Source: Alphaproteobacteria bacterium (GTDB lineage: Bacteria > Pseudomonadota > Alphaproteobacteria > UBA828). Taken from it: a stretch of DNA of 64,000 bases. Numbering within the stretch: position 1 is the first letter of the stretch; every line of letters begins with the position of its first letter. This document shows, in pieces, positions 25,957 to 34,360 of this stretch. The notes beneath the pieces were generated by a model. It was not told the DNA's origin and searched no databases. It worked only from the letters and a program-made list of their open reading frames with translations. The translations under genes were made by a program, and so were the position numbers. The stretch covers positions 124,001 to 188,000 of the forward strand of contig JAJDUK010000063.1 of NCBI GenBank assembly GCA_022826665.1, read 5' to 3'.

Positions 25957-27135
25957 TCAGACCGAATCGAACTCGTTGTCGTGGCGCTCGATGTAGCGGA
26001 CGATCCGCTCGAGCCCCTCGCGCAGGGCCTCGTGCGAATGGGCGAAGCAGAGCCGGAAGTGCTCCTCGTTGCCGGGGCCGAAGGTGTAACCCGGAGCGAT
26101 GCCGACGTCCTCCTCCGCGAGCACGCCCTCCACGAACGCGAGGCTCGACGTGAGCCCCCGCACGCGCGGAAAGGCATAGAACGCGCCCTGCGGCTCCGTG
26201 AGTTCGACGCGCGGGCAGCGCCCCAGCACCTCGGTCACGATCTCCCTTCCTCTCGCGTACTGATCGCGTAGCCGGGCGACCGTCTCCTCGCCCCGCTCCA
26301 GCGCCGTGATCGCGGCCTGCTGCACGAATACGGTCGCCCCGGTGTTGAAACACTCGGAGAGGATCGCCCAGGTCTCGGCGTGCCGGCTCGGCGCGACCAC
26401 CCAGCCGACCCGCCAGCCGGTCATGGCCCAGGCCTTGGAGAACCCGCTCACGACGATGACCGGATCGTCGTCGCGTGCCAGCGTCATGAAGGAGGGCGCG
26501 ACGTCGCAGTCATAGACGTTGCGATGGTAGACCTCGTCGGCGATCAGAAGGATGTTCCGCTCGCGGCAAAGCTCCAGCAGCTCGGCCTGCTGCTCCGCGG
26601 GCATCACCCAGCCGGTCGGGTTGCAGGGGGAGTTGACGAAGAGCGAGCGGGTGCGGGGGCGCAGCGCGGCGCGGATGTCGTCGAGATCGAGCTGCCATCC
26701 GGCCTCCGACCGCCGCTGGCTCACATACGTCACCTCGGCGCCGGTCGCCTGGTAAGTGCTTTCGATGTTGGGCCAGACCGGGCCGACGATGATCGCGTGA
26801 TCGCCGGTGGTCAGCGCCATCTGTGCGGCAATGGTGATGCCGAGCATGGTCGCGCCCGGCACGGTGATTCGGTCAGGGTCGAGGTCGATCCCGTAGAGGG
26901 CGTCGAGGTAGCGCTTCAGCGCGTCGCGCAGCGCCTGCTTGCCGCGGGTGTGGGTGTAGAAGGTGTCGCCCGCGTCGAGTGCCTCCTTGGCCGCCACGCG
27001 AATGAACTCGTCGGTCACGGCATCGCCCTCGCCGAACCAGAGCGCGATCACCTTGGGGTCGCCGATGCGGGTCAGGGCGACGCGGGTAATCCCGTTCTGT
27101 TCCAGGGCGGCGATTTCGGGGCGGAGGAAATCCAT
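25957..27135 (-). CDS. Class I/II pyridoxal-phosphate aminotransferase
   Basis: This protein has 392 residues from ATG 27135 (MDFLRPEIAALEQNGITRVA); ATG 27141 and GTG 27144 are alternatives, and no start has a strong ribosome-binding site. The PLP lysine is K234 in SGFSKAWAMTGWRVGW, and NSPCNPTG is the ligand-binding loop. It is a fold-type I enzyme of uncertain substrate. The upstream 340 bp carry the hairpin array and minus-strand terminator described separately, so it may be controlled by an RNA leader. Confidence 0.87.
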   Translation of the reverse strand: MDFLRPEIAALEQNGITRVALTRIGDPKVIALWFGEGDAVTDEFIRVAAKEALDAGDTFYTHTRGKQALRDALKRYLDALYGIDLDPDRITVPGATMLGITIAAQMALTTGDHAIIVGPVWPNIESTYQATGAEVTYVSQRRSEAGWQLDLDDIRAALRPRTRSLFVNSPCNPTGWVMPAEQQAELLELCRERNILLIADEVYHRNVYDCDVAPSFMTLARDDDPVIVVSGFSKAWAMTGWRVGWVVAPSRHAETWAILSECFNTGATVFVQQAAITALERGEETVARLRDQYARGREIVTEVLGRCPRVELTEPQGAFYAFPRVRGLTSSLAFVEGVLAEEDVGIAPGYTFGPGNEEHFRLCFAHSHEALREGLERIVRYIERHDNEFDSV

Positions 27136-27228: not shown

Positions 27229-27260
27229 ATAAAAGGAAGGCCGGGTCCGAAGACCCGGCC
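27229..27260 (-). terminator. Intrinsic terminator with UUCG loop
   Basis: On the minus strand GGCCGGGTC and GACCCGGCC form a 9-bp perfect stem capped by TTCG (positions 27239-27260). TTCCTTTTAT (27238-27229) follows. This is a strong intrinsic terminator, located about 95 nt upstream of the aminotransferase start. Confidence 0.8.
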
Positions 27261-27358
27261 AGTCTAACAGGGAGGCTTCACGTCTAGGAGACGTGGGATC
27301 CGAGGATCCCCTTCAGGCCTTGCACCTGAAGACGACAAACCGGGGTGGGCACCCCGGC
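27229..27358 (-). ncRNA. Candidate structured small RNA or regulatory leader
   Basis: The minus strand carries, in 5'-3' order, perfect stems at 27340-27357 (CCGGGGT/ACCCCGG), 27311-27331 (CTTCAGG/CCTGAAG), 27295-27310 (GGGATC/GATCCC) and 27279-27295 (CACGTCT/AGACGTG). The UUCG terminator at 27239-27260 comes last. The stems are nearly contiguous. One loop (TCTCCTAGA) and the linker GCCTCCC are C/U-rich, like ribosome-binding-site-pairing loops in some alphaproteobacterial sRNAs. No known RNA family was recognised. It may be a free sRNA or an attenuator for the downstream aminotransferase. The 5' end is not fixed. Confidence 0.45.
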
Positions 27359-27369
27359 TAATCCTCGTC

Positions 27370-27389
27370 GCATGACGCACGCGTCATGC
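27370..27389. promoter_or_regulatory. 20-bp inverted repeat, candidate operator
   Basis: GCATGACGC-AC-GCGTCATGC has two perfect 9-bp arms with a 2-bp spacer. The short spacer suits a dimeric DNA-binding protein better than an RNA hairpin. It lies just upstream of the RNA candidate on the minus strand. The neighbouring LysR-type regulator could bind it, although LysR sites usually have the T-N11-A form. Confidence 0.4.
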
Positions 27390-27445
27390 TGCGGCGCAAT
27401 ATGTAATCGTGCCGAAACAAATGTGCTAGGGCATGGGAAGCAAAC

Positions 27446-27470
27446 CAGCCATGCGTTTAGTTCATGGCTG
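27446..27470 (-). terminator. Hairpin after lysR
   Basis: CAGCCATG (27446-27453) pairs perfectly with CATGGCTG (27463-27470) around a 9-nt loop, 9 bp past the lysR stop. On the minus strand it is followed by GTTTGCTTCCC, a weak T-rich tract. It is a possible terminator for the trxB-lysR transcript. Confidence 0.45.
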
Positions 27471-28397: not shown

Positions 28398-29366
28398 TCA
28401 CGCCGCGGCAGCGGCCTCCGGCGTGTCGGCCTCCGCGAGAAACTTCTCGGCCTCCAGCGCGCCCATGCAGCCGGTGCCGGCGGCGGTTACCGCCTGCCGA
28501 AACACCTTGTCCTGCACGTCGCCGGCGGCGAACACGCCCGGCACGTTGGTCTTCGTGCTGTCCGCCATCGTCTGGATGTAGCCCTCGTCGTCCATCGTAA
28601 GCTGGCCGGCGAAGAGTTCGGTGTTGGGTCGGTGCCCGATGGCGATGAACACGCCCGAGAGCGGGATGCGTTGCACTGCATCGGTCTTGACGTGGCGCAC
28701 CGCTATCCCCGTCACCGTCGGCGGCTCGCTCTCGCCCTCGATCTCGTCCAGCACGTGGTCCCACAGGACCTCGATCTTGTCGTTTCGGAACAGGCGGTCC
28801 TGCAGGATCTTTTCGGCCCTGAGCGCGTCGCGACGGTGGACGAGGGTGACCTTGCTCGCGTGATTGGTGAGGTAGAGCGCCTCTTCGACCGCGGTGTTGC
28901 CGCCGCCAATCACCGCGACCTCCTTGCCGCGGAAGAAGAATCCGTCGCATGTCGCACAGGCCGAGACGCCGAAGCCCATGAAGCGCTGCTCGCTTTCCAG
29001 GCCCAGCCACTTCGCCTGCGCGCCCGTGCAGATAATGACGGTGTCGCCGATGTAGACATCGCCGGAATCGCCGGTGCAGACGAAGGGCCGTTGGCTGAGG
29101 TCCACGGTAGTCACCATGTCGTGGACCAGCCGCGTCCCCACTGCCCCAGCCTGGCCCGCCATCTGCTCCATGAGCCACGGTCCCTGGATGATGTCGGCGA
29201 AGCCCGGATAATTCTCGACATCGGTGGTGATGGTGAGTTGACCGCCGGGCTCGAGGCCCTGGACCATGATCGGCTCAAGGTTGGCGCGCGCGGCGTAGAT
29301 CGCCGCAGAGTAGCCGGCAGGGCCGGAGCCGATGATCACGACCTTGCTGCGGTGGGTCGTCGCCAT
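28398..29366 (-). CDS. trxB: Thioredoxin-disulfide reductase
   Basis: This 322-residue FAD enzyme reduces thioredoxin with NADPH. The FAD motif GSGPAGYSAAIYAARA is at residues 13-28, the redox-active pair is Cys137/Cys140 in ACATCDGF, and the NADPH motif GGGNTAVEEA follows near 154-163. CAAGDVQDKVFRQA-type residues (FAAGDVQD) bind the flavin at the C-terminus. The length is standard. It is followed by lysR. Confidence 0.96.
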   Translation of the reverse strand: MATTHRSKVVIIGSGPAGYSAAIYAARANLEPIMVQGLEPGGQLTITTDVENYPGFADIIQGPWLMEQMAGQAGAVGTRLVHDMVTTVDLSQRPFVCTGDSGDVYIGDTVIICTGAQAKWLGLESEQRFMGFGVSACATCDGFFFRGKEVAVIGGGNTAVEEALYLTNHASKVTLVHRRDALRAEKILQDRLFRNDKIEVLWDHVLDEIEGESEPPTVTGIAVRHVKTDAVQRIPLSGVFIAIGHRPNTELFAGQLTMDDEGYIQTMADSTKTNVPGVFAAGDVQDKVFRQAVTAAGTGCMGALEAEKFLAEADTPEAAAAA

Positions 29367-30912: not shown

Positions 30913-31944
30913 ATGAGCTTCAAGAAGATTGCCGGCGCCGTCGCGGTGGCCGGCGCGCTGGTGGCCGCGGGCGCGGTTCCGGGCCAGGCAGCGACACTCG
31001 ACGACGTGAAGGCCGCAGGCACGCTCAAGTGCGGCATCAACACTGGCCTGCCGGGGTTCGCCTACACCGATGACGCGGGCAATTGGACCGGCTTCGACGT
31101 GGCTTATTGCCGGGCGATGGCTGCCGCCGTTCTGGGCGACGCCAACGCAATTTCCTTCGTCAACCTGACCGGCAAGACCCGCTTCCCGGCGCTGGCATCG
31201 GGCGAGATCGACGTGTTGTCGCGCAACACGACCTGGACCTACTCGCGCGACGTCGACCTCGGCTTCACCTTCGTCGGCGTCAACTATTATGACGGCCAGG
31301 GCTTCATCGGCCGCACGGCTTTGGGTATCAGCAGCGCCACCGAGCTCGACGGCGCCTCGGTCTGCATCCAGACCGGCACGACCACCGAGCTCAACCTCGC
31401 GGACTTCTTCCGCGTCAACGGCATCACTTACGAGCCGGTGCCGATCGAGACCAACGCAGAGGCCCGCGCGGCTTACGAGGCGGAGCGTTGCGACGTCTAC
31501 ACGACGGACGCGTCCGGTCTGGCAGCAACGAAGACCACCTTCGACGACCCCAGTGCACACATGGTGTTCCCGGAGATCGTCTCAAAAGAGCCGCTGGGGC
31601 CGCTGGTGCGCCAGGGCGACGACCAGTGGGCGGACATCGCGCGCTGGACGCTGAACGCGCTGATCACGGCCGAGGAGCTCGGCGTGACCCAGGCGAATGT
31701 CGAGGAGATGGCCGCAGCCGCTGGCGATCATCCTGAGATCAACCGGATGCTCGGCACGGAAGGCTCGCTTGGCGAGATGCTGGGCCTCGATGCGCAGTGG
31801 GCGGTCCGGGCGATCGCGGCGGAAGGCAACTACGCCGAGATCTTCGACCGCTATATCGGCCCCGACAGCCCGCTCGGACTGGGTCGTGGCCTGAATGCGC
31901 TGTACACGGATGGCGGCATCCTCTATTCGCCTCCGTTCCGTTAG
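30913..31944 (+). CDS. aapJ: General L-amino acid ABC transporter binding protein AapJ/BztA
   Basis: This 343-residue periplasmic protein has a signal peptide ending near GQAATLDD (residues 24-31). The mature part, GTLKCGINTGLPGFAYTDDA and DVAYCRAMAAAVLGD, is diagnostic of the AapJ/BztA group. GGAGGACGGG precedes the ATG. It captures a broad range of L-amino acids, with acidic and amide types typical in Rhizobium and Rhodobacter. It is the first gene of the operon and is followed by a strong hairpin. Confidence 0.93.
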   Translation: MSFKKIAGAVAVAGALVAAGAVPGQAATLDDVKAAGTLKCGINTGLPGFAYTDDAGNWTGFDVAYCRAMAAAVLGDANAISFVNLTGKTRFPALASGEIDVLSRNTTWTYSRDVDLGFTFVGVNYYDGQGFIGRTALGISSATELDGASVCIQTGTTTELNLADFFRVNGITYEPVPIETNAEARAAYEAERCDVYTTDASGLAATKTTFDDPSAHMVFPEIVSKEPLGPLVRQGDDQWADIARWTLNALITAEELGVTQANVEEMAAAAGDHPEINRMLGTEGSLGEMLGLDAQWAVRAIAAEGNYAEIFDRYIGPDSPLGLGRGLNALYTDGGILYSPPFR

Positions 31945-31955
31945 AATCAACGATG

Positions 31956-31999
31956 TCACCGTCCCGCCCGCGCGACCGGGCGGGACGGTGATTCTTTCT
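31956..31999 (+). terminator. Strong hairpin between aapJ and aapQ
   Basis: TCACCGTCCCGCCCG (31956-31970) and CGGGCGGGACGGTGA (31977-31991) form a 15-bp perfect stem with a 6-nt loop, followed by TTCTTTCT. It can work as a partial terminator that lets only some transcripts reach the permease genes, or protect the aapJ 3' end. Confidence 0.75.
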
Positions 32000-32060
32000 G
32001 ATCAGTGCTTATTTGAGACAAGAGAGATTGTTCCGTTGACGTGAGGAGGGCGCCGCCACC

Positions 32061-33251
32061 GTGAGCGAGAGACCGGCGCCTCCACGCGGCGGCGGCTTCG
32101 ACATAAGCCGCGCCTGGACCGACGAGCGCGCCCGCGGCGTTATCTTCCAAATTCTGATCGTGCTCGGGGTGGCAGGCCTTGCCGCCTTCATCGTTATCAA
32201 CACGATCACGAACCTTAGAGAAGCCGGTCTCTCCTCCGGCTACGGCTTCCTCTTCGACACCGCCAACTTCGATATCAACCAGCGCCTCCTCGATTACGCG
32301 TCGACCTCGACCTACGGGCAGGCGTTCGTGGTCGGTGCGCTCAACACGATCCTCGTCGCCGTGATGGGCATCATCGCTGCGACGGTCATCGGCTTCGTCA
32401 CGGGCGTCCTCAGATTGTCCAACAACTTCCTGGTGAGCCGCATCGTTGGGGTCTGGGTCGAGTTCACCCGCAACGTCCCGGTCCTGCTGCAGATTATCTT
32501 CTGGTGGCTGATCATGCTGGCGCTGCCCAGGGTGAAGGACAGCATTTCGATCGGCGATGCAGCCTTTCTGAACAATCGCGGCATCTTCCTGCCCTCGCCC
32601 GTCTTCGAGGACGGCTCGGCGATCGTGCTGGCGATGATCCTGATCGGTGTGATCGGGGCGGTCCTGGTCGGGCGCTGGGCCAGGAAACGCCAGGAGGCGA
32701 CGGGCCGCACCTTCCCGGTCGGCTGGGTCGGGCTCGGGCTGATCGTGGGCATCCCCGTGATCGTCTATGTCGCCCTCGGCCAGCCGCTCGATTTCGACAT
32801 CCCGGAGAAGAAGCGCTTCAATTTGAAGGGCGGCTTCAACATTACGCCGGAGCTGATAGCGCTCTGGCTGGCGCTCTCCACCTATACCGGCGCCTTCATC
32901 TCCGAGATCGTGCGCGGCGGCATTCTCTCGGTCTCCAAGGGTCAGACCGAGGCGGCCGGCGCGCTCGGGCTGAGGCGCGGGCTGACCATGCGCAAGATCA
33001 TCCTGCCGCAGGCGCTGCGGGTGATCATCCCGCCGATGACCAGCCAGTACCTCAACCTGACCAAGAACTCCTCGCTCGCCGTCGCCATCGGCTACCAGGA
33101 CATCGTCTCCATCGGCGATACCATCCTCAACCAGAGCGGACAGGCGCTCGAGGTGATCTCGCTCTACATGGCCTTTTATCTGGTGCTGAGCCTGCTCACG
33201 TCCGCATTCATGAATTGGTACAACAAGCGCATCGCCCTGGTGGAACGATGA
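32061..33251 (+). CDS. aapQ: General L-amino acid ABC transporter permease AapQ/BztB
   Basis: This 396-residue inner-membrane permease has a GTG start 10 bp after GAGGAGGG. ARGVIFQILIVLGVAGLAAF is the first helix. EFTRNVPVLLQIIFWW and the EAA loop EAAGALGLRRGLTMRKIILP (near residues 302-321) are typical of polar-amino-acid permeases. It overlaps aapM by 4 bp. Confidence 0.93.
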   Translation: MSERPAPPRGGGFDISRAWTDERARGVIFQILIVLGVAGLAAFIVINTITNLREAGLSSGYGFLFDTANFDINQRLLDYASTSTYGQAFVVGALNTILVAVMGIIAATVIGFVTGVLRLSNNFLVSRIVGVWVEFTRNVPVLLQIIFWWLIMLALPRVKDSISIGDAAFLNNRGIFLPSPVFEDGSAIVLAMILIGVIGAVLVGRWARKRQEATGRTFPVGWVGLGLIVGIPVIVYVALGQPLDFDIPEKKRFNLKGGFNITPELIALWLALSTYTGAFISEIVRGGILSVSKGQTEAAGALGLRRGLTMRKIILPQALRVIIPPMTSQYLNLTKNSSLAVAIGYQDIVSIGDTILNQSGQALEVISLYMAFYLVLSLLTSAFMNWYNKRIALVER

Positions 33252-34360
33252 AGACGCACGCCTTCCACCGCAGCCGGGCGGAGATGCTGCCGGAGCGGCC
33301 GGCGCCCATCACCACCACGGGTGTGATCGGCTGGCTGCGGACCAACCTCTTCTCCAGCTATCTGAGCGCGGCGCTGACGCTCGGCTCGATCGCCGTGCTC
33401 GCGCTGATCGTACCGGGTCTGATCGAGTGGGCCTTCATCGATGCAACGCTTACGGGCGAGATCGGCAAGGACTGTCCCAGCGAGGGTGCGTGCTGGGCTT
33501 GGCTCGACCAGCGCATCACTCAGTTCTTCTACGGCTTCTACCCAGCCGATGCCTACTGGCGGGTGAACATCTGCATCGCCCTGCTGGTACCGGCGCTCGC
33601 CTATATGCTGTTCGACAAGCTGCCGTATTCCCGCTACGGGCGCTGGTTCTCGCTCGCCTATCCGGTAATCGCCGCGATCCTTCTGGTCGGCGGCCTCGGC
33701 CTCGAAGTCGTGCGGACCGATCAGTTCGGCGGCTTCATGCTCAATCTTATCGCCGGACTCGTCGGCATCGTGCTTTCGCTACCCATCGGGATCCTGCTGG
33801 CACTCGGCCGGCGCTCGCGCATGCCGATCGTCCGGATGTTCTCGGTCGGGTTCATCGAGTTCATCCGCGGCGTGCCGCTGATCACGCTGCTCTTCGTCGC
33901 GATCATCCTGCTGCCGCTTTTCTTGCCGCCCCAGGTCACGCTCGACCAGTTGATCCGCGTGATGATCATCATCACGGTGTTCGCCTCCGCCTACATGGCC
34001 GAGGTGATCCGCGGCGGACTGCAGGCGATCCCGCAAGGGCAGTACGAGGCCGGTCAGGCGATGGGGCTCGGCTACTGGCAGTCGATGCGCCTGATCATTC
34101 TGCCACAGGCGCTCAAGATCTCGATCCCGGGAATCGTCAACACCTTCATCGGGCTCTTCAAGGACACCACGCTGGTCATCATCATCGGCCTGTTCGATAT
34201 CCTGGGCCAAGCGCGCCTCCTCCAGACCAATCCGGACTGGCTGGGCAAGGTCGATTACGAGACCTTCCTGCTGGCGGCGCTGTTCTTCTTCGTGATCTGC
34301 TTCAGCATGTCGCGCTACTCGCTCAATCTCGAGAAGCGTCTGGACACCACGAGACGCTAG
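33248..34360 (+). CDS. aapM: General L-amino acid ABC transporter permease AapM/BztC
   Basis: This 370-residue permease has its ATG overlapping the aapQ stop. The first transmembrane helix is near residues 35-60, and a periplasmic loop with CPSEGACWAWLDQRI lies around residues 76-90. The permease core starts near residue 160 (NLIAGLVGIVLSLPIGILLA). The EAA loop reads YEAGQAMGLGYWQSMRLIIL. It pairs with AapQ in the membrane. Confidence 0.93.
   Translation: MKTHAFHRSRAEMLPERPAPITTTGVIGWLRTNLFSSYLSAALTLGSIAVLALIVPGLIEWAFIDATLTGEIGKDCPSEGACWAWLDQRITQFFYGFYPADAYWRVNICIALLVPALAYMLFDKLPYSRYGRWFSLAYPVIAAILLVGGLGLEVVRTDQFGGFMLNLIAGLVGIVLSLPIGILLALGRRSRMPIVRMFSVGFIEFIRGVPLITLLFVAIILLPLFLPPQVTLDQLIRVMIIITVFASAYMAEVIRGGLQAIPQGQYEAGQAMGLGYWQSMRLIILPQALKISIPGIVNTFIGLFKDTTLVIIIGLFDILGQARLLQTNPDWLGKVDYETFLLAALFFFVICFSMSRYSLNLEKRLDTTRR

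Follow-up and report, generated by a model that had tools for sequence, protein, structure and literature searches.

The locus studied here raises the question whether an array of hairpins that lies between two genes and ends in an intrinsic terminator is a free small RNA (sRNA) or a switch in the leader of the gene that follows. It was analysed within a stretch of 64,000 nucleotides from the draft genome of an alphaproteobacterium, referred to below as the window. The gene order on the minus strand is trxB, a gene for a LysR-type regulator, the hairpin array and a PLP aminotransferase gene with a start near 27135. On the opposite strand, at 30913-34360, the window carries an amino-acid ABC transporter (AapJ-like binding protein and permease-like ORFs), which starts approximately 3.5 kb from the RNA.

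On re-checking, the minus strand was seen to hold six stems and a UUCG terminator between 27389 and 27231 (Table 1). The five hairpins listed in an earlier, sequence-only reading were all recovered at their positions, among them the minus-strand intrinsic terminator with its 9-bp stem and TTCG loop, and so was a further 20-bp inverted repeat on the 5' side (27389-27370). The latter was read as the 5' hairpin of the RNA because it is situated just downstream of the inferred start; on account of this position and of its folding into hairpin 1, its role as a protein operator was rejected. As a minor point, base 27295 is common to the stems 27295-27279 and 27310-27295, which are therefore mutually exclusive at full length. 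The terminator stem is followed by TTCCTTTT. Folding of the minus strand between 27393 and 27230 gave -85.7 kcal/mol; dinucleotide shuffles averaged -60.2 +/- 4.4 kcal/mol, and not one of 200 was as low (z -5.8). Furthermore, 99% of cells in the genus alignment pair, with three two-sided changes, located in hairpins 1, 2 and 6; hairpins 3 and 5 lack covariation support within the genus, since neither varies there. The suggestion that chance could hardly account for so many stems was thus borne out, because they are conserved in the genus and compensatory changes occur in three of them. The stems also covary across the class (score 0.275 vs 0.107 in shuffled alignments and at most 0.11 when slid), a result to be read with the caveat that termination by itself makes terminator stems covary and that the short hairpin adds little. 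A small ORF within the RNA (ATGACGCGTGCG...TAG, 9 codons) was dismissed, as inspection of the alignment by eye showed that the genus does not keep it.

Table 1. Features of the sRNA locus and its upstream genes (window coordinates)
Feature	Coordinates	Strand	Basis or remark
trxB, thioredoxin-disulfide reductase	28398..29366	-	NCBIfam TIGR01292 over cut-off, E 1.7e-122
LysR-type regulator, 296 aa	27479..28369	-	43-98% identity to LysR proteins adjoining trxB/sRNA across Alphaproteobacteria
LysR-type dyad ATG-N9-CAT (ATGAACTAAACGCAT, a T-N11-A box)	27451..27465	-	dyad counts in 80 loci
VtlR/LsrB box GCAT-N3-TG-N3-T (GCATGGCTGGTTT)	27442..27454	-	exact consensus match (PMC8844928, PMC7486931)
-35-like element CTAGCA	27424..27429	-	-36 to -31; CTAGC identical in six aligned loci of the genus
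-10-like element TACATA	27400..27405	-	-12 to -7; 18 nt after the -35-like element; alignment
putative sRNA gene	27231..27393	-	approx. 163 nt; 5' end estimated by promoter geometry, 3' end by the terminator
hairpin 1 (20-nt palindrome)	27370..27389	-	9-bp stem; compensatory U-A to C-G change in genus
hairpin 2	27340..27357	-	compensatory change in genus
hairpin 3 (CUUCAGG/CCUGAAG)	27311..27331	-	invariant in genus
hairpin 4 (GGGAUCC/GGAUCCC)	27295..27310	-	stem present at coordinates; genus alignment
hairpin 5 (CACGUCU/AGACGUG)	27279..27295	-	loop region CUCCUA at 27290-27285; class alignment
single-stranded linker AAGCCUCCCUGUUAGACU, predicted anti-Shine-Dalgarno seed	27261..27278	-	CUCCC invariant in 39 class sequences; unpaired in centroid fold
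intrinsic terminator	27231..27260	-	9-bp stem 27260-27239, UUCG loop, U-rich tail; stem covaries in class

Upstream of the array, the dyad ATG-N9-CAT overlaps the VtlR/LsrB box. To place these elements in context, 80 loci were chosen solely by their LysR protein, independently of the RNA. The dyad was found in 60 of them vs 2.5 expected, and its stricter form, ATGC-N7-GCAT, in 54 vs 0.19 expected from base shuffles, although the latter count does not stand for 80 independent events, because the loci are related. In PabcR1 the LsrB consensus GCAT-N3-TG-N3-T is positioned at -61 to -49, together with generic T-N11-A boxes (PMC8844928). Setting the first base of the window box as -61 puts +1 at 27393 and consequently TACATA at -12 to -7 and CTAGCA at -36 to -31; the box at -61 to -49 with a -10-like element at -12 to -7 is the geometry reported for PabcR1 (PMC8844928). 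A scan of the region with a generic sigma-70 model found no consensus promoter. From these elements we infer that the LysR protein would bind the box and activate the sRNA. A second gene with a VtlR box was sought in the genome and rejected, as the one-mismatch site, in L188, is without such context and two-mismatch sites occur at background level.

The LysR protein of the window is likely an orthologue of VtlR/LsrB, as judged by synteny and by identity among the fetched loci; trxB precedes the LysR gene in most of the loci. The activity of LsrB depends on the oxidation of two cysteines (PMC8844928), and the window protein (28369-27479) possesses a single one, at position 227, so that two-cysteine redox sensing as in LsrB is unlikely and the signal may differ.

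The RNA itself belongs to a wider family defined by its 3' module, in which a hairpin whose loop is of the CUCCC(A) type is followed by a CCUCCCUGUU linker and the terminator. The pattern ACGUCUCCCAGACGU-GAAG-CCUCCCUGUU-NNACU plus terminator recurred whether loci had been retrieved by DNA, by SorX or, independently, by nothing but the LysR protein. The loop of hairpin 5 reads CUCCUA in the window and CUCCCA in most other lineages of the class alignment. A covariance model made from the 3' module, R1, gave strong matches (at least 33 bits) in 52 of the 80 LysR-anchored loci, every one of them downstream of the LysR gene and on the same strand. Nine further loci of this set (e.g. Stappia, Kaistia, Xanthobacter, Microvirga) harbour in the same place an AbcR-type GUUCCC RNA, which carries GUUCCC(C)UCUGGAA, a sequence that includes motif M2 of AbcR (PMC5461406), and some of which R1 touches weakly (20-25 bits). 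Reciprocally, the LysR gene was present in 21 of 29 RNA-anchored loci. R1 matches were obtained in 157 of 289 alphaproteobacterial genomes. In the window's own draft genome, R1 detected one copy at 84.5 bits and no second significant one, the next match scoring 17 bits. It should also be added that two to six copies, some in tandem, were seen in L070, L073 (Thalassospira), L100, G188 and G254, which resembles the sibling arrangement of AbcR1/AbcR2, and that a selenocysteine tRNA (6667-6758 of L131) was observed near the trxB-lysR locus of Xanthobacter tagetidis.

Three other explanations were weighed against a free sRNA. The array could be the leader of the aminotransferase mRNA, a riboswitch or attenuator whose terminator decides on read-through; the terminator does end approximately 94 nt from the likely aminotransferase ATG (27135) on the same strand, very near the distance of about 95 nt given in the sequence-only reading. 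However, the aminotransferase adjoins the RNA only in L001-L003 and L005 and is absent in L004, L006, L007 and all other loci examined, yet the RNA is conserved and, according to DNA and protein searches, persists together with the upstream trxB-lysR pair where the aminotransferase is missing. That trxB-lysR stays with the RNA and the aminotransferase does not is evidence against such a leader, for which no single downstream gene is constant, and this part of the earlier reading was rejected on synteny. Moreover, the fold shows no anti-terminator and no riboswitch occurs among the Rfam matches, which leaves the leader hardly credible.

Processing of the RNA from the 3' UTR of the lysR transcript would agree with its start only about 85 nt past the lysR stop, and with the closest Rfam match, SorX, which is itself made by 3' UTR processing (PMC9438474). 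Against this speak a conserved operator and promoter-like elements, at PabcR1 distances, in the gap from the lysR stop to the RNA, and we regard such an origin as unlikely. Very improbable, in turn, is that the array merely provides the terminator of a trxB-lysR operon behind a structured, non-regulatory spacer: the operon would indeed end there, but the CUCCC of the linker, unneeded for termination, is invariant in 39 divergent sequences, the operator precedes the RNA, and some loci hold tandem copies.

Judged from sequence, the locus holds a conserved RNA that carries an anti-Shine-Dalgarno (anti-SD) linker and ends in a terminator; trxB and a VtlR/LsrB-type LysR gene accompany it, and a conserved LysR-type operator lies ahead of it together with promoter-like elements. 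The free-sRNA alternative is supported, and we consider it likely that this is a stand-alone gene for a trans-acting sRNA of the AbcR/SorX kind, which the adjacent VtlR-like regulator probably activates. Under the mechanism proposed, the LysR protein would bind the box at about -61 and activate transcription from about 27393, RNA polymerase would stop at the terminator near 27231, and the U-rich tail would be bound by Hfq, which is encoded in the window's genome. Through the exposed CCUCCCUGUU linker, and perhaps also through the CUCCUA loop, the RNA would then pair with Shine-Dalgarno (SD) regions of target mRNAs, putatively those of ABC solute-binding proteins (LivK-like, urea-type, sugar/polyamine types) and of other metabolic genes, and block their translation. 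As with AbcR1 in rhizobia, the outcome would be the coupling of a VtlR/LsrB-type signal to nutrient uptake.

The idea that C/U-rich parts could pair with ribosome-binding sites is favoured by the unpaired state of the linker and by its complement at predicted start sites. This complement, ACAGGGAGG, precedes an ATG by 3-11 nt at 13 places in the genome, vs one for the reversed control. Among 11 genes whose site is a perfect 9-nt match, six code for ABC solute-binding proteins, including four of Peripla_BP_5/6 (LivK/urea type), and in five other genomes the same applies to 7 of 19 site-bearing genes, one being TRAP-type. Among controls with equally strong SD sequences and no match, 4 of 18 were solute-binding (Fisher p 0.09 for the own genome, 0.12 pooled), and the excess over strong-SD controls is only suggestive. 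Across 698 predicted genes in stretches totalling 0.86 Mb, partly picked for holding pattern matches, predicted binding to the linker is better for solute-binding genes than for the rest (p 4e-5; p 0.018 after correction for SD strength); in the same 0.86 Mb, 13-16 of 100 flank-shuffled linkers equalled the real one in this preference. The predicted pairing is partly due to the strong SD sequences of these genes. Pairing of the linker with solute-binding mRNAs is thus likely, and any specificity for these mRNAs is putative. Repression of livK by AbcR1 through an anti-SD loop is pairing of the same kind (PMC3712013).

Work on the control of nutrient uptake by AbcR has centred on plant- and animal-associated rhizobia and on Brucella, and that on SorX on Rhodobacter. 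More than half of the sampled alphaproteobacterial genomes share a conserved RNA whose neighbour gene and operator are the same, which points to regulator-linked anti-SD control of transporters as a class-wide feature of Alphaproteobacteria. R1 is a covariance model missing from Rfam, and with it the question of where AbcR and SorX came from can be put to the test.

As to known systems, Rfam at gathering thresholds returned no match on the RNA, and in E-value mode SorX, SorY and suhB/mmgR matched this span and strand, none of them reaching its gathering score. The best was the full-length match to SorX of Rhodobacter sphaeroides (RF02784; 37.2 bits, E 1.3e-7, gathering 46.6), followed by weak ones to SorY (RF02651; 29.8 bits vs 111) and suhB/mmgR (RF00519; 27.3 bits vs 41). 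The RNA had been called new, which stands insofar as no Rfam family claims it at gathering score and falls insofar as it belongs with the AbcR/SorX kind. The window RNA shares with SorX a CCUCCCUGUU(A/G)GA linker followed by a GC-rich terminator with GGCCGGG; SorX, however, is processed from the RSP_0847 3' UTR, whereas the window RNA adjoins a LysR-type gene and is apparently transcribed from a promoter of its own. The likeness to suhB/mmgR and SorY, CUCCCU...AGACU and then a terminator, probably reflects a shared anti-SD and terminator design. The AbcR model ar15 (RF02345) did not match the window at E up to 10; its 0 matches in 181 class genomes are uninformative, as the controls were equally silent and the model may reach only close rhizobia.

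In Agrobacterium tumefaciens, abcR1/2 are located directly downstream of trxB-vtlR (PMC7486931), and the window RNA shares with AbcR1/AbcR2 of Rhizobiales this place after trxB and a VtlR/LsrB LysR gene, the box and the promoter geometry, as well as a CUCCC(A)-type loop, a C-rich single-stranded anti-SD linker, the terminator and candidate LivK-type targets. It differs in motif M1 (CUCCCA in a hairpin loop of AbcR, CUCCUA here), in M2 (GUUCCC between hairpins, replaced here by CCUCCCUGUU), in length (approximately 163 nt vs 114-121 nt), in its extra hairpins and in its single copy. In relatives from the same family (L008-L010, L013-L016), the loop of the 5' hairpin is rich in C and U (e.g. CACCUCCCGG), like hairpin 1 of AbcR; in the window's genus this loop is reduced to two bases and anti-SD letters are kept only near the 3' end, and the RNA is therefore not a formal member of ar15 or SorX. 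We file it as an RNA that would work like AbcR/SorX and as the positional counterpart of AbcR1. Tentatively, the VtlR/LsrB-linked anti-SD sRNA may be an ancestral alphaproteobacterial module, of which the form in the window, with a CUCCCA-type loop, a CCUCCCUGUU linker and a terminator, would be the widespread type, with AbcR of rhizobia and SorX of Rhodobacter as its derived or relocated forms.
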